The notes under the pieces: model-generated | The model's database searches: none | The model's input: the letters and a program-made list of their open reading frames with translations, nothing else | What the model was told of the DNA's origin: nothing | From: Lutibacter sp. | Lineage (GTDB): Bacteria; Bacteroidota; Bacteroidia; Flavobacteriales; Flavobacteriaceae | Assembly: GCA_030694935.1 (NCBI GenBank) | Contig: JAUYUA010000092.1 | Span: forward strand, 1 to 64,000 | Direction: 5' to 3' | Length of the DNA stretch: 64,000 nt | Part shown: positions 14,572-32,424 of the stretch, piece by piece | Layout: each line of letters starts with the position of its first letter | Numbering within the stretch: the first letter of the stretch is position 1 | Made by a program: the position numbers and the translations under genes

Positions 14572-14706
14572 GTGTTAAGGATTGCAGCCCTTCGGCTCCG
14601 CTCAGGGTAAACTTATCCTTTTTTGTAATGAAATGGGAAAAAAGATTTAGTGAAAAGCCTGACCTGCCTGCCGGCAGGCAGGCCTGCCAGCTGGCGGGGA
14701 ACGCCC
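14572..14706. repeat. Composite intergenic repeat GCGTGTTAAGGATTGCAGC...GGGGAACGCCC, holding CTTCGGCTCCGCTCAGG and CCTGCCTGCCGGCAGGCAGG palindromic units
   Basis: Ends match the copy at 28724-28822; internal palindromes CCTGCCTGCCGGCAGGCAGG and CCAGCTGG. Confidence 0.7.
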
Positions 14707-15799: not shown

Positions 15800-18700
15800 A
15801 TGGAATATAATTTTAGAAAGATAGAAGCCGACTGGCAAAAGTATTGGGCGGAAAACCAAACGTTTAAATCCGAAAACAATTCAACCAAACCAAAATATTA
15901 CGTATTGGATATGTTTCCGTATCCGTCGGGTGCCGGTTTGCACGTGGGCCATCCGCTTGGTTACATCGCTTCCGATATTTATGCACGCTACAAACGCCAT
16001 AAAGGATTTAACGTTTTGCATCCGCAGGGTTATGATTCTTTCGGATTGCCGGCCGAGCAATATGCGATTCAAACGGGTCAGCATCCTGCAATTACCACCG
16101 AAGAAAATATCAAAACATACAGAAAACAATTGGATCAAATCGGATTTTCATTCGATTGGTCGCGTGAAGTGCGAACTTCCGATCCCAATTATTACAAATG
16201 GACCCAGTGGATTTTCATTCAATTGTTCAATTCCTGGTACCATAAAACAACTGATAAAGCGGAGGATATTTCAACATTAATTGCCATATTTTCTTCTGAA
16301 GGAAACAGCAAGGTAAAAGCCGCTTGCGATGATAATATTGAAGCATTTTCTGCGGATGAATGGAAAAATTTTTCCGAAGAAAAACAACAAAAAATATTAT
16401 TGCAATACCGATTGACTTTCTTGTCGGAAACCGAGGTAAACTGGTGTCCGGGATTGGGAACGGTTTTGGCAAACGATGAAATTGTGAACGGCGTTTCCGA
16501 ACGCGGCGGCCATCAGGTTATTCGTAAAAAAATGATGCAGTGGAGTATGCGAATCACCGCATACGCACAACGTTTGTTGGACGGAATGGCAAAAATAGAC
16601 TGGCCACAACCGCTAAAAGATATACAAACTTATTGGATTGGCAGAAGTGAAGGTGCGATGGTTTCTTTCAAAGTCCTATCCCCAGCCCCTACCGTGGCAG
16701 GTAAACTTTCCCAAGGAAAGGGAGTTAGAGATTCGGGTTACTTAACAGGAAATCAAGATATAGCACATTTATTGTTGGAGAAAGCAAAAGAAATGCGAGC
16801 AAATCCAACACCAGCTGAATCATTTCTTTGGGAACAACTGAAAAGCAAAAAATTAGACATAAAATTTAGGCAGCAGCATTTAATAGATGATTTTATTGTT
16901 GATTTTGTGTGTTTAACTAAACTGTTAATTATTGAGGTTGATGGAAAAATTCATGAATCTCAGATTGAAAAAGATCTTGAAAGAACTAAAATCCTTGAAA
17001 ATAAGGGATACAAAGTAATTCGATTTACAAATGAGGAAGTCATTGGGAATATTGATGGAGTTGTTTCAAAAATTATTGTAGAACTTGAAAAACGCCCAGC
17101 ACCTACCACGGCAGGTAAACTTTCCGAAGGAAAGCGAGCCAGCGAGAACAATGAAGTCCTTCCCTTGGGGAAGGATTTAGGATGGGACATTCCTGTTTTC
17201 ACCACACGTCCCGACACAATTTTCGGTGTAAGTTTTATGACTTTGGCACCTGAACATGATTTGGTGCCGATGATCACAACGCCTGAACAAAAAGTAGTAG
17301 TTGAAGCTTATATAAAATCCACCGCAAAACGCAGTGAATTGGAACGAATGGCCGATGTGAAAACCATTTCCGGCGTATTTACCGGCGCGTATGCCTTGCA
17401 TCCGTTTTCGGGAAAAAAGATTCCAATTTGGATTGGCGATTATGTGTTGGCTGGCTACGGAACTGGCGCTGTGATGGCAGTTCCTTGCGGCGACCAGCGC
17501 GATTATGATTTTGCAAAACATTTCAATCTTGAAATTCCGAATATTTTTGAAGGTGTCGATATTTCTGAAGGCGCTTATACCGACAAGGAAAATTCGGTAA
17601 TTGCAAATTCCGATTTTTTGAACGGATTGCCTTACAAAAAAGCATTGAAACGCATTATTGACGAAACTGAACAACTTGGTTTTGGTTACGGAAAAGTGAA
17701 TTTCCGCTTGCGCGATGCTGTTTTTAGCCGCCAGCGTTATTGGGGAGAACCATTTCCGGTGTATTACAAAAACGGTTTGCCGCAAATGATTGACGCAAAA
17801 TATTTGCCGATTGTGTTGCCCGAAGTTGAAAAATATTTGCCAACAGAAGACGGAAAACCGCCTTTGGGAAACGCCACAGTTTGGGCTTGGGACACAAAAA
17901 AGTCGGCAGTTGTCAGTAATCAGTTGATTGATCATAAAATGGTGTTTCCATTAGAATTAAACACAATGCCGGGTTGGGCTGGAAGTTCTTCTTATTTTAA
18001 CCGGTATATGGATCCGCACAATACAGAAGAATTTGTGAGCAGGGAAGCGGTTGAATATTGGCAGGATGTTGATTTGTATATCGGTGGCAGCGAACACGCA
18101 ACCGGACATTTATTGTACTCCCGTTTTTGGCAAAAATTCTTATTCGACAAAGGCATTGTTCCTGTTGATGAATATGCGAAAAAGCTAATTAACCAAGGTA
18201 TGATTACTGGGACGAGCGCTTTTGTTTACAGGTGGGAATTTGGCAAAGGAAACGGTTCGGATATGGCGAAGAAAACTATTTTTGTCAGTAAACCTATAAT
18301 GGAGAGAATTATTGCAGAAAGAAGCACTATTAAACATTCCAATAAGAGGTTAATAAAAGAGCAAGTTGATTTGTTGGGTGCTTGTGAGGTAAAGGATTCT
18401 TCAGCAAATGAATGGTCAAACTTTACGCCAATTCACGCTGATGTATCTTTGGTAAACGCTGCCGACGAATTGGATATTGAAGCTTTTAAAAATTGGCGGC
18501 CAGAAAATAAAGATGCTGAATTTATTTTAGAAGAGGGGAAATATATTGTGGGTCGCGAAGTCGAAAAAATGTCGAAATCCAAATACAATGTGGTAAATCC
18601 GGACCAGATTTGTGAGGAATACGGCGCCGACAGTTTGCGTATGTTCGAAATGTTTTTAGGTCCGCTGGAACAGTCGAAACCCTGGAAAACATCAGGAATT

Positions 18701-19246
18701 TCAGGCGTGCTTAGTTTTTTAAAGAAACTTTGGAAATTGTATATTGTTGATAATAAATTTTCTGTTTCAGAAGAAAATCCATCAAAAGAGGAGTTTAAAA
18801 TTTTGCATAAAACCATTAAAAAAGTGGAAGAAGACATTGATAATTTTTCTTTCAACACTTCGGTTTCCACCTTTATGATTGCGGTAAACGAATTAACCGC
18901 CTTAAAATGCAACAAACGGGCAATTTTAGAGCCGATGGCGATTTTAATGGAACCTTATGCGCCGCATATTGCAGAAGAATTGTGGAAAAACTTGGGTCAT
19001 GCAACTTCAGTTTCATCAGTTGATTTTCCGATTTTTGAACCAAAATATTTGGTTGAAAGCAGCAAGGAATATCCGGTTTCATTCAATGGCAAAATGCGTT
19101 TTAAAATTGAATTGCCCTTGGATTTAAGCGTAAAAGAAATAGAAGATGCGGTGATGGCCCACGAAAAAACTCAGGAACAATTGCAGGGGCGTGTGCCTAA
19201 TAAAGTGATTATTGTTCCGGGAAAAATTATAAATATTGTAGGGTAA
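15800..19246 (+). CDS. leuS: Leucine--tRNA ligase with an in-frame DUF559-containing insertion in the CP1 editing domain
   Basis: Full LeuRS: MFPYPSGAGLHVGHPLGYIASD, editing-domain TTRPDTIFG, DQRDYDFAKHF, KMSKSKYNVVNPDQI. 172 codons of insertion (16673-17188) between AMVSFK and IPVFTTRPDT. Confidence 0.97.
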   Translation: MEYNFRKIEADWQKYWAENQTFKSENNSTKPKYYVLDMFPYPSGAGLHVGHPLGYIASDIYARYKRHKGFNVLHPQGYDSFGLPAEQYAIQTGQHPAITTEENIKTYRKQLDQIGFSFDWSREVRTSDPNYYKWTQWIFIQLFNSWYHKTTDKAEDISTLIAIFSSEGNSKVKAACDDNIEAFSADEWKNFSEEKQQKILLQYRLTFLSETEVNWCPGLGTVLANDEIVNGVSERGGHQVIRKKMMQWSMRITAYAQRLLDGMAKIDWPQPLKDIQTYWIGRSEGAMVSFKVLSPAPTVAGKLSQGKGVRDSGYLTGNQDIAHLLLEKAKEMRANPTPAESFLWEQLKSKKLDIKFRQQHLIDDFIVDFVCLTKLLIIEVDGKIHESQIEKDLERTKILENKGYKVIRFTNEEVIGNIDGVVSKIIVELEKRPAPTTAGKLSEGKRASENNEVLPLGKDLGWDIPVFTTRPDTIFGVSFMTLAPEHDLVPMITTPEQKVVVEAYIKSTAKRSELERMADVKTISGVFTGAYALHPFSGKKIPIWIGDYVLAGYGTGAVMAVPCGDQRDYDFAKHFNLEIPNIFEGVDISEGAYTDKENSVIANSDFLNGLPYKKALKRIIDETEQLGFGYGKVNFRLRDAVFSRQRYWGEPFPVYYKNGLPQMIDAKYLPIVLPEVEKYLPTEDGKPPLGNATVWAWDTKKSAVVSNQLIDHKMVFPLELNTMPGWAGSSSYFNRYMDPHNTEEFVSREAVEYWQDVDLYIGGSEHATGHLLYSRFWQKFLFDKGIVPVDEYAKKLINQGMITGTSAFVYRWEFGKGNGSDMAKKTIFVSKPIMERIIAERSTIKHSNKRLIKEQVDLLGACEVKDSSANEWSNFTPIHADVSLVNAADELDIEAFKNWRPENKDAEFILEEGKYIVGREVEKMSKSKYNVVNPDQICEEYGADSLRMFEMFLGPLEQSKPWKTSGISGVLSFLKKLWKLYIVDNKFSVSEENPSKEEFKILHKTIKKVEEDIDNFSFNTSVSTFMIAVNELTALKCNKRAILEPMAILMEPYAPHIAEELWKNLGHATSVSSVDFPIFEPKYLVESSKEYPVSFNGKMRFKIELPLDLSVKEIEDAVMAHEKTQEQLQGRVPNKVIIVPGKIINIVG
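16673..17188 (+). mobile_element. Composite repeat element carrying a DUF559/Vsr-like endonuclease domain, inserted in leuS
   Basis: Starts GTCCTATCCCCAGCCC, ends GGATTTAGGATGGGAC (complementary ends). Encodes NPTPAESFLWEQLKSKKLDIKFRQQHLIDDFIVDFVCLTKLLIIEVDGKIH...GYKVIRFTNEEV. Flanked by direct repeats CCTACCRYGGCAGGTAAACTTTCCNAAGGAAAG. Confidence 0.85.
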
Positions 19247-27416: not shown

Positions 27417-27940
27417 CCTTCTGAATTTAAAAGTACAGTTGCCAACATTACATAAAAAATTGCTCAATGGACTTAAATAGGAAGTTTTAAAATTTAATTT
27501 TTTAGGTTAAAAAGTTAGAGATCGAAAAATCATTTTTTAAACCCAATTTGTTTTCTTTCATCTTGCGAAATTTGTTGCTCGTCCTTGTTCAATAAATAAT
27601 GCAAAGCCTGGTTAATATCTTTAAAATTAAGATTCATTTGGTTTTCAAGTTTCGCGATATTTTCTTTGAGGAACTGTAATGAAATAAAGTGTGCAGAATT
27701 GGCGACGTAATTTTGTTCTTTTTTAAGGCGTAAACGATGCGAATAGCCTATGATATTTAAAGAGTTTACAACGAATAAAAAGGGCAAAAGAACAAGCCAA
27801 AATGTATAATTTATTTCATTACAGTTCCTTATGTCTTTGTAATCAGCTAAATGTTGTCGCAATACCACAAATGCCCTTATTACTGCAATATTTACTTGTA
27901 TGGCTTTTTTGCTGTTTAAGACACTTGAAAGCATGGCGAC

Positions 27941-27968
27941 ACTCCTTCGGCTCCGCTCAGGACAGGCT
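27941..27968. repeat. Dispersed repeat unit CTTCGGCTCCGCTCAGGACAGGCT inside the ORF6N gene
   Basis: Similar to 14588-14608 and 54974-55003; minus strand encodes KACPERSRRS. Confidence 0.85.
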
Positions 27969-28016
27969 TTGTTCCGTAAAGGCAAAAGGTTTTGCGCCGC
28001 CAAGTTTACTTTTAGA

Positions 28017-28680: not shown

Positions 28681-28723
28681 TCTGTTAGCTTTTTTTATCA
28701 ATATTTCATTATTTATTCAATTT

Positions 28724-28822
28724 GCGTTAGTGATTGAAGCGGAAATCCTTTTTTGAGGCTTTTTTTTGCCGAAAAAAAGATTGCAGCGGAAAGCACGCCC
28801 CGCCAGCTGGCGGGGAACGCCC
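28724..28822. repeat. Composite intergenic repeat GCGTTAGTGATTGAAGCGGAAATCC...GGGGAACGCCC
   Basis: Shares both ends with 14572-14706; ends CCGCCAGCTGGCGGGGAACGCCC. Confidence 0.7.
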
Positions 28823-28965: not shown

Positions 28966-31900
28966 ATGAGCAAAAAATTTAGAGAATATAAAGGATTGGA
29001 CCTCACCAAAGTAGCGGAAGAGACTTTAGCGTTTTGGGACGCGGAACATATTTTCGAAAAAAGCATTAGCACACGAGACGAGAATAAATCTTTTGTATTT
29101 TATGAAGGACCACCATCGGCAAACGGATTGCCGGGAATTCACCATGTGATGGCCCGTGCGATAAAAGATATTTTTTGCCGTTACAAAACACAGCAGGGAT
29201 TTCAGGTAAAACGAAAAGCTGGCTGGGATACGCACGGTTTGCCAATTGAATTGGGTGTAGAAAAAGAATTGGGAATTACCAAAGAAGATATCGGCACAAA
29301 AATTTCGGTTGAAGCATATAACGAAGCTTGTAAAAATGCCGTAATGCGCTATACCGATGTTTGGAACGATTTAACCAAACGCATTGGTTATTGGGTGGAT
29401 ATGGAAGATCCGTATGTGACTTACAAGCCAAAATATATGGAAACGGTTTGGTGGTTGTTGGCGCAATTGTATAAAAAAGGATTGATTTATAAAGGATATA
29501 CCATTCAGCCTTATTCGCCAAAAGCGGGAACAGGGTTGAGTTCACACGAATTAAACCAACCAGGAACGTATCAGGATATTACAGATACCACGGTTATTGC
29601 GCAATTTAAAGTCCTATCCCCAGCCCTTTCCCAAGGAAAGGGAGTTTTAAAAGTCCTTCCCTTTGGGAAGGATTTAGGATGGGACAATACTTATTTGTTA
29701 GCCTGGACAACAACGCCTTGGACATTGCCATCGAACACCGCGCTTACGGTTGGGAAAAAGATTGATTATGTTTTGGTGAAATCTTTCAACCAATATACGT
29801 TTGAACCGATCAGCGTAATTTTGGCAAAAGCTTTGGTTGGGAAACAATTTTCAGGCAAATTTTTTGCGGTTGAAAATGAATCTCAGCTGTCGGAATACAA
29901 CGAAAACGAGAACCTGCCTGCCGGCAAGGCGGGAAAGATTCCTTATTTTATTGCTGGAGAATGCAAAGGAGCCGATTTGGTTGGTTTAAGATATGAGCAA
30001 TTGATGCCTTATGCGCTTCCGTATAAAAATGCGGAAAATGCTTTTAGGGTTATTGCAGGTGATTTTGTGACTACAGAAGACGGTACAGGAATTGTGCACA
30101 CAGCGCCAACTTTTGGGTCCGATGATGCAATGGTTGCAAAACAAGCAGTGCCGGAAGTGCCGCCAATGTTGGTGTTGGATGACAATGGGAATCCGGTTCC
30201 GCTGGTAGATTTACAGGGAAGATTCACCAAACATATGGGCGAATATGCCGGAAAATATGTAAAAAACGAATATTATGAGGATGGCGAAGCGCCAGAGCGC
30301 TCGTTAGATGTTGAAATTGCCATTCAATTAAAAGAAGAAAACAAAGCGTTTAACGTTGAAAAATACAAACACAGTTATCCGCATTGCTGGAGAACCGACA
30401 AACCGGTTTTATACTATCCGTTAGATTCCTGGTTTATAAAAGTGACCGACAAACGTGATCGTATGTTCGATTTGAACAATACCATTAACTGGAAACCAAA
30501 ATCGACCGGCGAAGGCCGTTTTGGAAACTGGCTGAAAAACGCCAACGACTGGAACTTGTCGCGTTCCCGTTATTGGGGAATTCCATTGCCAATTTGGAGA
30601 ACGGAAGACGGAACTGAAGAAATTTTTATCGGTTCGGTGGAAGAATTGATGGCCGAAATGAAAAAATCGGTAGCAGCTGGACAAATGAAAGCTGCTATTT
30701 TTGCCGATTTTGAAGTGGGGAATATGAGCGAAGAAAACTATGATAAAATCGACTTGCATAAAAATGTGGTTGATGAAATTGTCTTGGTTTCGGCCTCAGG
30801 AAAACCAATGAAACGCGAAGCGGATTTGATTGATGTTTGGTTCGATTCTGGTTCGATGCCTTATGCACAATGGCATTATCCGTTCGAAAATAAAGAGTTG
30901 ATAGACAATAATAAATTCTTTCCTGCCGATTTTATTGCGGAAGGTGTTGACCAAACAAGAGGTTGGTTTTATACGCTTCACGCCATATCAACGATGGTTT
31001 TTGATTCCGTTGCCTACAAAAATGTGGTATCAAACGGATTGGTTTTGGATAAAGACGGCAAAAAAATGTCGAAACGATTGGGAAATGCTGTTGATCCTTT
31101 TGAAACGATGGACAAATACGGAGCCGATGCCACACGTTGGTACATGATTGTAAATGCGAATCCGTGGGACAATTTAAAATTTGATTTGGAAGGCATTGAT
31201 GAGGTTCGAAGAAAATTCTTCGGAACCATTTACAATACGTATTCCTTCTTTGCTTTGTATGCAAATCTGGATAATTTTTCCTATTCCGAAGAAGAAATCG
31301 CATTGGATGAAAGACCTGAAATTGACCGTTGGATTTTATCTGAACTGAATACCTTGGTAAAAAACACAGAAAGTTTTTACGAAGATTACGAGCCAACAAA
31401 AGCGGCTCGTGCCATTCAGGATTTTGTTTCAGAAAATTTAAGCAACTGGTTTGTACGCTTAAGCAGAAGACGTTTTTGGAAAGGCGATTACGAAAAAGAC
31501 AAAGTTTCGGGCTATCAAACACTTTATACCTGTCTTTTAACAGTAGCAAAATTGGGCGCTCCAATTGCACCTTTTTTTATGGACAATCTTTACAAAGATT
31601 TAACAAATGTTTCTGAAAAAGAAAAATTTGAATCCGTACATTTGGCAACTTTTCCAGCGTATGATAAAAGTTTAGTTGACAATAAGTTAGAGCACAAAAT
31701 GCAACAGGCTCAAAAAATATCCTCTATGGTTTTATCATTGCGTAAAAAAGAAATGATAAAAGTGCGCCAGCCATTGCAAAGAATTATGATTCCGGTTTTA
31801 AACGATGAAGAACGGGAAGAAATTTTAGCGGTGGCAGATTTGATAAAATCGGAAGTGAACGTGAAAGAAATTGAATTGATTGATGATGCCTCCGGAATCG

Positions 31901-32424
31901 TGGTAAAAAGCATAAAACCTAATTTTAAGGTGTTGGGGCCAAGGTTTGGAAAAGATATGAAAATGATCTCTGAAGCCATTCAAAATTTAACACAAAATGA
32001 TATAGCGATTGTTGAAAAACAGCAAGAAATATCGTTGGTAATAAATGAGAAAGTCGTAACTTTAAAACTTGACGAAGTAGAAATTATTTCGCAGGATATT
32101 GAAGGCTGGTTAGTGGCAAACCAAGGAGGTTTAACAGTGGCATTAGACATCACTATTACCGATGATTTACGAATGGAAGGCAACGCCAGGGAGTTGGTGA
32201 ACAGGGTGCAGAATTTGCGTAAAGATTCGGGATTGGAAGTTACTGACAAAATAATATTAGTTATTGAAAAAAATGATATATTAGGGCGTTCAATTGCAGC
32301 AAATGAACATTATATTAAAACCGAGACATTAACAAAAGAACTCGTTTTTGTGGATGAATTAGAAAACGGCACAGAGATTGCCTTTGACGATGTGCAAACA
32401 AAAATATTAATAAAGAAAAATTAA
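28966..32424 (+). CDS. ileS: Isoleucine--tRNA ligase (two repeat-derived in-frame insertions)
   Basis: YEGPPSANGLPGIHHVMARAIKD, WTTTPWTLPSNTAL, DGKKMSKRLGNAVDP, WFDSGSMPYAQWHYP. Confidence 0.97.
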   Translation: MSKKFREYKGLDLTKVAEETLAFWDAEHIFEKSISTRDENKSFVFYEGPPSANGLPGIHHVMARAIKDIFCRYKTQQGFQVKRKAGWDTHGLPIELGVEKELGITKEDIGTKISVEAYNEACKNAVMRYTDVWNDLTKRIGYWVDMEDPYVTYKPKYMETVWWLLAQLYKKGLIYKGYTIQPYSPKAGTGLSSHELNQPGTYQDITDTTVIAQFKVLSPALSQGKGVLKVLPFGKDLGWDNTYLLAWTTTPWTLPSNTALTVGKKIDYVLVKSFNQYTFEPISVILAKALVGKQFSGKFFAVENESQLSEYNENENLPAGKAGKIPYFIAGECKGADLVGLRYEQLMPYALPYKNAENAFRVIAGDFVTTEDGTGIVHTAPTFGSDDAMVAKQAVPEVPPMLVLDDNGNPVPLVDLQGRFTKHMGEYAGKYVKNEYYEDGEAPERSLDVEIAIQLKEENKAFNVEKYKHSYPHCWRTDKPVLYYPLDSWFIKVTDKRDRMFDLNNTINWKPKSTGEGRFGNWLKNANDWNLSRSRYWGIPLPIWRTEDGTEEIFIGSVEELMAEMKKSVAAGQMKAAIFADFEVGNMSEENYDKIDLHKNVVDEIVLVSASGKPMKREADLIDVWFDSGSMPYAQWHYPFENKELIDNNKFFPADFIAEGVDQTRGWFYTLHAISTMVFDSVAYKNVVSNGLVLDKDGKKMSKRLGNAVDPFETMDKYGADATRWYMIVNANPWDNLKFDLEGIDEVRRKFFGTIYNTYSFFALYANLDNFSYSEEEIALDERPEIDRWILSELNTLVKNTESFYEDYEPTKAARAIQDFVSENLSNWFVRLSRRRFWKGDYEKDKVSGYQTLYTCLLTVAKLGAPIAPFFMDNLYKDLTNVSEKEKFESVHLATFPAYDKSLVDNKLEHKMQQAQKISSMVLSLRKKEMIKVRQPLQRIMIPVLNDEEREEILAVADLIKSEVNVKEIELIDDASGIVVKSIKPNFKVLGPRFGKDMKMISEAIQNLTQNDIAIVEKQQEISLVINEKVVTLKLDEVEIISQDIEGWLVANQGGLTVALDITITDDLRMEGNARELVNRVQNLRKDSGLEVTDKIILVIEKNDILGRSIAANEHYIKTETLTKELVFVDELENGTEIAFDDVQTKILIKKN
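29611..29685 (+). mobile_element. Minimal (75-bp) copy of the leuS-type composite repeat inside ileS
   Basis: GTCCTATCCCCAGCCCTTTCCCAAGGAAAGGGAGTTTTAAAAGTCCTTCCCTTTGGGAAGGATTTAGGATGGGAC; two perfect hairpins enclosed by a complementary outer stem; encodes VLSPALSQGKGVLKVLPFGKDLGWD. Confidence 0.88.
29911..29934 (+). repeat. CCTGCCTGCCGGCAAGGCGGG repeat unit inside ileS
   Basis: In-frame NLPAGKAG; matches the CCTGCCTGCCGGCAGGCAGG family (14663, 26720, 49966 and others). Confidence 0.8.

Follow-up and report, generated by a model that had tools for sequence, protein, structure and literature searches.

Two Flavo-1 elements in the window

The window analysed here, a stretch of 64,000 nucleotides from a Lutibacter sp. 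contig (GenBank JAUYUA010000092.1), contains two copies of a composite repeat, whose component features are listed in Table 1. Direct reading agrees with the original prediction, made from the sequence alone, on the positions and ends of both copies, on their shared middle (TCCTTTTTT...AAAAAAGATT), GYGRAAAGC block and GCTGGCGGGGAACGCCC end, and on the variable units lying between the conserved ends: CTTCGGCTCCGCTCAGG (at 14590-14606) together with CCTGCCTGCCGGCAGGCAGG in the first copy, and CCGCCAGCTGGCGGGG in the second. Such GC-rich units occur 3-6 times per window, against 0-0.04 expected from shuffled sequence.

Searching the Rfam models identified 28711-28804 as Flavo-1 (RF01705), with a score of 61 bits (E 7.4e-11), where the curated cut-off is 42 bits. 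At 20.6 bits the composite copy (14572-14706) falls below this cut-off, because a palindromic unit interrupts arm 1 of its fold; its assignment to Flavo-1 rests on the intact frame and on orthologs that lack the interruption. Both window copies are Flavo-1 elements. The original prediction had missed that the frame belongs to an established Rfam family and that it pairs in its own right, forming a closing stem and arm 1. The boundaries within the first copy could also be refined, the closing stem starting with the GTGTTA at 14572 and the inserted unit occupying 14589-14613.

Table 1. Features of the two Flavo-1 elements in the window
Feature	Position	Strand	Context or evidence
Composite Flavo-1 element	14572..14706	+	Between panE-like (ApbA) and EamA genes; below cut-off, arm 1 interrupted
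Closing stem P1, 5' strand GTGTTA	14572..14577	+	Partner 14700-14704; covariation across copies; in predicted fold
Palindromic unit CCTTCGGCTCCGCTCAGGG + TAAACT, inserted in arm-1 5' strand	14589..14613	+	Ortholog comparison
Arm 1 (P2), 3' strand, intact	14644..14664	+	Direct reading
Arm 2 (P3), nested GC-rich palindromes	14663..14699	+	Fold and arm-2 statistics
P1 3' strand AACGC and conserved CC	14700..14706	+	Covariation
Complete Flavo-1 (closing stem, arm 1, arm 2), upstream of ileS	28724..28822	+	RF01705, 61 bits
P1 5' strand GCGTTA	28724..28729	+	Partner AACGC at 28816-28820; covariation and fold
Arm 1 (P2), Rfam-modelled part, conserved G-A mismatches	28730..28796	+	Alignment counts
Arm 2 (P3), CCCCGCCAGCTGGCGGGG	28798..28815	+	Other hairpins at same site in other species

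Repeat units are also found within coding sequences of the window. In leuS (15800-19246), the leucyl-tRNA synthetase gene, the editing domain is preceded by an inserted DUF559 endonuclease-like domain (PF04480, 113.6 bits, residues 327-429), with similar repeat-coded peptides on either side of the insert (SPAPTVAGKLSQGKGVR / RPAPTTAGKLSEGKR). The ileS gene (28966-32424) carries at about 29917 an in-frame CCTGCCGGCAAG palindromic unit, read as the peptide NLPAGKAGK. A further CTTCGGCTCCGCTCAGG unit, at 27945-27961, gives the peptide CPERSRR in a minus-strand ORF (27530-28003) adjoining an ORF6N gene; here the repeat seems to have split or extended a gene.

Additional copies, on which the original prediction depended, are numerous both in this genome (G000; 3.22 Mb in 107 contigs) and in its relatives, the Lutibacter and Flavobacteriaceae genomes in public records. 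In the genome itself 48 copies exceed the Rfam cut-off, out of 71 matches in total, and a same-genome BLAST search with a 161-bp query gave 92 matches at E <= 10, the best non-self match having E 9.5e-32. Flavo-1 was found in 27 of 40 relatives, at 0-81 copies each, and this entire range, from 0 to 81, is seen within one genus.

The complete element is a three-way junction

Copies from this genome and its relatives share a conserved frame that runs from GCGTTA to (T/G)AACGCCC. In this lineage the complete element is a three-way junction formed by one strand and made up of a closing stem (P1), arm 1 (P2) and arm 2 (P3). RF01705 models arm 1 only, and the closing stem and arm 2 are absent from the model. 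The original prediction had named covariation in the paired regions as a test, and all three stems covary. The closing stem (GCGTT/AACGC) occurs in the coordinated variants GCGTTA/TAACGC, GCATTA/TAATGC, GTGTTA/TAACAC, GCGCTA/TAGCGC and GCGTGA/TCACGC. Whole-element MAFFT alignment misaligns the 3' stem owing to the variable arms, and pairs were therefore counted on ungapped blocks. Among 92 distinct rows, standard pairs fill 97% of the arm-1 cells, where the shuffle maximum is 90%; double changes occupy 77 cells, in 8 of the 11 pairs (shuffle maximum 23); and sliding the columns by 1-2 positions leaves pairing at only 36-56%. Arm 1 has the conserved internal mismatches by which Flavo-1 is recognised: at five flanking positions G-A or A-G is kept in 92-99% of the 92 rows, and at one mismatch position AG is swapped to GA in five rows.

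Arm 2 is a hairpin whose sequence is free to change as long as pairing is kept. For 72 distinct tips the mean stem is 6.2 pairs, compared with 3.6 when halves are swapped between tips, and the 37 tips without GC units give 4.4 compared with 2.4. Arm 2 is not universal, since copies from two other families of the order (G028 and G036) end without it; in a third family (G025) both P1 and arm 2 are present.

The Flavo-1 fold is strand-specific. Energy folding of the copy at 28724 predicts the three-way junction on the plus strand, with a z of -2.8, and the minus strand folds otherwise. The conserved G-A mismatches would read C-U on the opposite strand, and the paired columns hold 24 G-U cells against 9 A-C cells, a weak signal given that the copies are related.

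Some copies are cargo of IS1595-type MITEs

Thirteen Flavo-1 copies in this genome lie inside TIR-bounded elements, mostly of 168-215 bp, with 24-bp TIRs (GGCTAAGTTCTATTTATAACAGCA...TGCTGTTCTTATTAGAATTAAGCC or degenerate versions) and 8-bp target duplications. Twelve were scored by script, of which 9 have an exact duplication and 3 a single mismatch; the thirteenth (C76:21024) has an exact one by eye, giving 10 exact and 3 one-mismatch duplications overall. Duplication lengths of 4-7 and 9-12 fit worse than 8. When the left flank of one copy was compared with the right flank of another, 0 or 1 mismatch was seen in 7 of 380 pairs, eight copies being counted on both strands. When joined, the flanks match uninterrupted empty sites in relatives; for the C34 and C4 copies, 120 of 120 bases are identical in G004 and G009, with a single copy of the 8-mer. 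These 13 copies are thus short, non-coding, TIR-bounded and accompanied by a duplication of fixed length, as MITEs are. The window copies have no recognisable TIRs and no target duplication; the target-site duplication that the original prediction proposed looking for is present on TIR-bearing sister copies and absent on both window copies.

Joining the flanks for the empty-site test also brought to light a short ORF at C4:1047 (L042) that is interrupted by a TIR-bounded Flavo-1 and has an uninterrupted copy in a relative; by eye its product looks similar to the RelE/HigB-type toxins of toxin-antitoxin pairs. Separately, the left flank of C107:8421 (query bases 1650-1790) contains a further repeat family, ..ACGAGCCATAACAAATTTTGATACACACAGAAATGATTAATGGCGAAC.., with dozens of occurrences across related genomes.

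A TIR pattern scan of public genomes yielded two potential partners. One, from a Flavobacteriales genome (L405), is an element of 1,074 bp with TIR GGCTAAGTTCTAATTAGTACAGCA and the duplication AGGAAAAC on both sides; the other, from Melioribacteraceae (L344), is 1,103 bp long and has the same TIRs without a visible duplication. Each codes for a transposase of the IS1595 family, with matches to NF033547 at 158 bits (L405) and 156 bits (L344) against an NCBIfam cut-off of 75; the L405 enzyme also matches PF12762 (44.7 bits), and with its transposase and 8-bp duplication L405 belongs to the IS1595 family. Since the same TIRs bound an IS1595-family insertion sequence, the Flavo-1 TIR elements are IS1595-type MITEs. 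In this clade, then, a set of Flavo-1 copies is carried as cargo of such MITEs, and it is this carriage that accounts for their spread.

Partners with these TIRs were found in other taxa only. No match to the L405 transposase was obtained in the genome itself, and among 37 other members of the genus there was no close relative of it except one degenerate copy. A search of four genomes for an autonomous copy, using short exact TIR sequences, returned only MITEs and fragments. An ISL3 transposase was considered as partner and is absent from the genome, and the resident IS1595 element (C10) was rejected because its TIRs differ. The transposase behind the movement would have come from an L405-like IS1595 element that is now missing or unassembled here.

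Core and vehicle do not always occur together. Elements from several phyla (L374, L376, L345, L379, L386, L394) have the same TIRs and exact 8-bp duplications around different interiors. Elements in three relatives (G050 L254, G002 L239 and L249, G009 L235) have the same left TIR with an interior starting (TTT)GCGTATTCTATGATAAAAACCAA, and some of them have accumulated ACCGCAAAG repeats; they are possibly a longer ancestor. Flavo-1 in G019, G028 and G036 is essentially without TIR, apart from one chance-level right-end match in G028. Given TIR elements lacking the core and Flavo-1 copies lacking TIRs, the two are separable. In G036 most copies share some 60-130 bases of upstream sequence (L155-L160, L180), so a longer unit was amplified there.

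Arm exchange at old sites

Older copies, the window pair included, no longer show a recognisable TIR and keep a constant site across related species, where their arms have been invaded or replaced by palindromic repeats. The site upstream of ileS is occupied in ten relatives (G001, G002, G004, G005, G009, G021, G023, G041, G044, G050), and its arm 2 is CCCCGCCAGCTGGCGGGG here, CCGCCTTTTCGGCGG in G002, CCCCCCGCCTTTTCGGCGGGGGG in G023 and CCCGCATTTTCGCGGG in G044. The panE-eamA site is occupied in seven (G004, G005, G009, G021, G023, G041, G044), and the element is uninterrupted in G004, G021, G041, G044 and G023. Arm 1 reads GCAGC-GA-TATCC there in G004 and G021, and GCAGC-[25 nt]-TATCC in the window copy: a CCTTCGRCTCCGCTCAGGG unit replaces GA both in this genome and in G009 (L443). 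In G005 a TTTGCAAG repeat lies within the arm-1 tip at this site. The leader of an RND-type pump gene provides another example, with Flavo-1 about 15 bases before the start codon in five species (L171, L176, L415, L420, L429), bearing five different arm-2 hairpins, and absent in four others. The comparative data, orthologous sites included, thus bear out the original view of a structured frame with a variable arm in which palindromic units nest. Elsewhere, an attempt to set Flavo-1 boundaries in G019 by joining flanks failed because the neighbours were too diverged, the RND-pump site excepted.

The CCTTCGRCTCCGCTCAGGG unit sits at the identical position in 19 distinct copies (the window copy, L443 of G009 and 17 others). 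Two copies bearing it (C23:700 and C82:12643) lie inside TIR elements with different exact duplications, and the composite therefore moves as one. A second unit, of 47 bp, occupies the same arm-1 loop in C87:22875 and is absent from the G004 and G009 ortholog, and CCTGCCTGCCGGCAGGCAGG is nested at the centre of CCGCCAG/CTGGCGG in arm 2 (C16:7939 compared with L182). The added units are located at hairpin tips or in this loop, and may have arrived by insertion or by gene conversion.

At old orthologous sites without TIRs, whose flanks have diverged beyond alignment, both arms still pair. At some conserved sites arm 1 is wrecked, as upstream of ileS in G050 and G004, and the function of the site, if any, is therefore dispensable.

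Possible roles of the element

The account that best joins these results, in which a junction fold is carried by IS1595-type MITEs, exchanges its arms at old sites and is selected there on one strand, is as a whole probably correct. On it, the one-strand fold would be under selection at its site, and Flavo-1 would most likely serve in cis as a hairpin platform, of RNA or of single-stranded DNA, in which extra hairpins are tolerated only at the tips. Apparent selection at a fixed site could also result from gene conversion between copies.

The alternative with the best prospects, tenable if unlikely, is that Flavo-1 is a regulatory RNA, either an sRNA gene or a cis element, with its copies as paralogous regulators. 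The family was described as likely RNA without cis-regulatory signs (PMC2864571), and the strand-specific fold, with its G-A mismatches and its excess of G-U over A-C, fits such a reading, as does persistence at orthologous sites such as the RND-pump leader in five species. The consistent orientation and placement expected of a cis-regulatory RNA are nevertheless missing: between co-directional genes 13 copies are sense and 11 antisense, which is near random, and all four arrangements of neighbouring genes are seen. The F. psychrophilum transcriptome gives a similar picture, Flavo-1 occurring sense or antisense indistinctly and many matches lying outside transcripts (PMC9723704). The swing in copy number within the genus and the presence of some copies in mobile elements also argue against regulators. 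Translation was considered as well; a small-protein frame crosses some copies in G036 by eye, and other copies of the set do not keep it.

That Flavo-1 is a purely selfish MITE, its fold a remnant or an aid to transposition without any role at the site, is doubtful. The TIRs, 8-bp duplications and empty sites, the variable copy number and the destruction of arm 1 at some occupied sites would all be expected of it. MITEs with the same TIRs, exact duplications and other interiors, however, make the core unnecessary for movement, both arms are still paired at old TIR-less orthologous sites, and TIR-less Flavo-1 is common in other taxa.

Less probable again is an ssDNA hairpin element, REP/Y1 (HUH)-like or attC-like, with nested units entering through hairpin loops. 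It would suit a fold selected on one strand, inserted units placed at hairpin tips or in the loop of a small hairpin (GGATT/AATCC) within the 5' strand of arm 1, and the CTTCGRCTCCGCTCAGG unit, which is a dispersed palindrome. Against it, the TIR copies are shown to move in the double-strand DDE manner, leaving 8-bp duplications, and there is no clear replication-strand bias: by GC skew the genome's own copies divide 22 to 12 (p 0.12) and those of G028 9 to 6, and the division of 25 to 9 obtained from local gene direction (p 0.009, uncorrected) was not repeated in G028. An attC-like site shows some likeness, but the order of the core differs.

An intrinsic transcription terminator is very improbable, since the minus-strand hairpin with a T-rich tail at 28784-28805 that suggests it is confined to that strand, has no counterpart in the composite copy, and copies oriented that way are not enriched at gene ends.

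Returning to the selected, MITE-carried junction, a bolder form of the proposal would make Flavo-1 not an sRNA family at all but a nest and a vector at once: a strand-specific folded platform, dispersed by IS1595-type MITEs and selected at its sites, which palindromic mobile units would enter preferentially at the hairpin tips. This stronger version is speculative, and on balance unlikely to hold in full.

Relation to known systems and implications

Short folding intergenic repeats that affect transcripts include the Correia elements (NEMIS) and ERIC, and NEMIS are themselves MITEs. They belong to other hosts, with other sequences and no three-way junction, and the target duplication of NEMIS is TA, where that found here is 8 bp. 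Flavo-1 and IS1595 are both already known. The present TIR elements share with IS1595-family insertion sequences and MITEs the same kind of TIRs, the 8-bp duplication, and autonomous copies with an IS1595-family transposase, but their interior is a conserved structured element that is also found outside the MITE. The inserted GC-rich units can be likened to REP palindromes with GTAG or CGTC tags (PMC3733652) only as short dispersed palindromes. With Flavo-1 as published (RF01705; PMC2864571) the elements share arm 1, the internal mismatch motifs, the spread in Bacteroidetes, the many copies per genome and the unknown function; they differ in that a closing stem and a variable second arm belong to the element and that copies travel in MITEs. 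In the open-paper literature searched, no link between Flavo-1 and IS1595 was found, and no report of the closing stem and second arm, of MITE carriage, or of arm exchange at orthologous sites.

As an RNA family, Flavo-1 has stood as an orphan since 2010, and it appears among the most abundant bacterial sRNAs in a table of a 2022 review (PMC9029176). Should it prove to be a mobile structured repeat, such published counts mean something else. The Rfam model would then need the two missing stems, and recent insertions would become separable from old fixed copies. The two window sites are natural experiments, in which the same site bears different arms in up to 11 genomes, so that the roles of arm 1 and arm 2 are testable by exchange at a single locus, and for this orphan 'small RNA' family the idea of a mobile structured repeat is now open to test.
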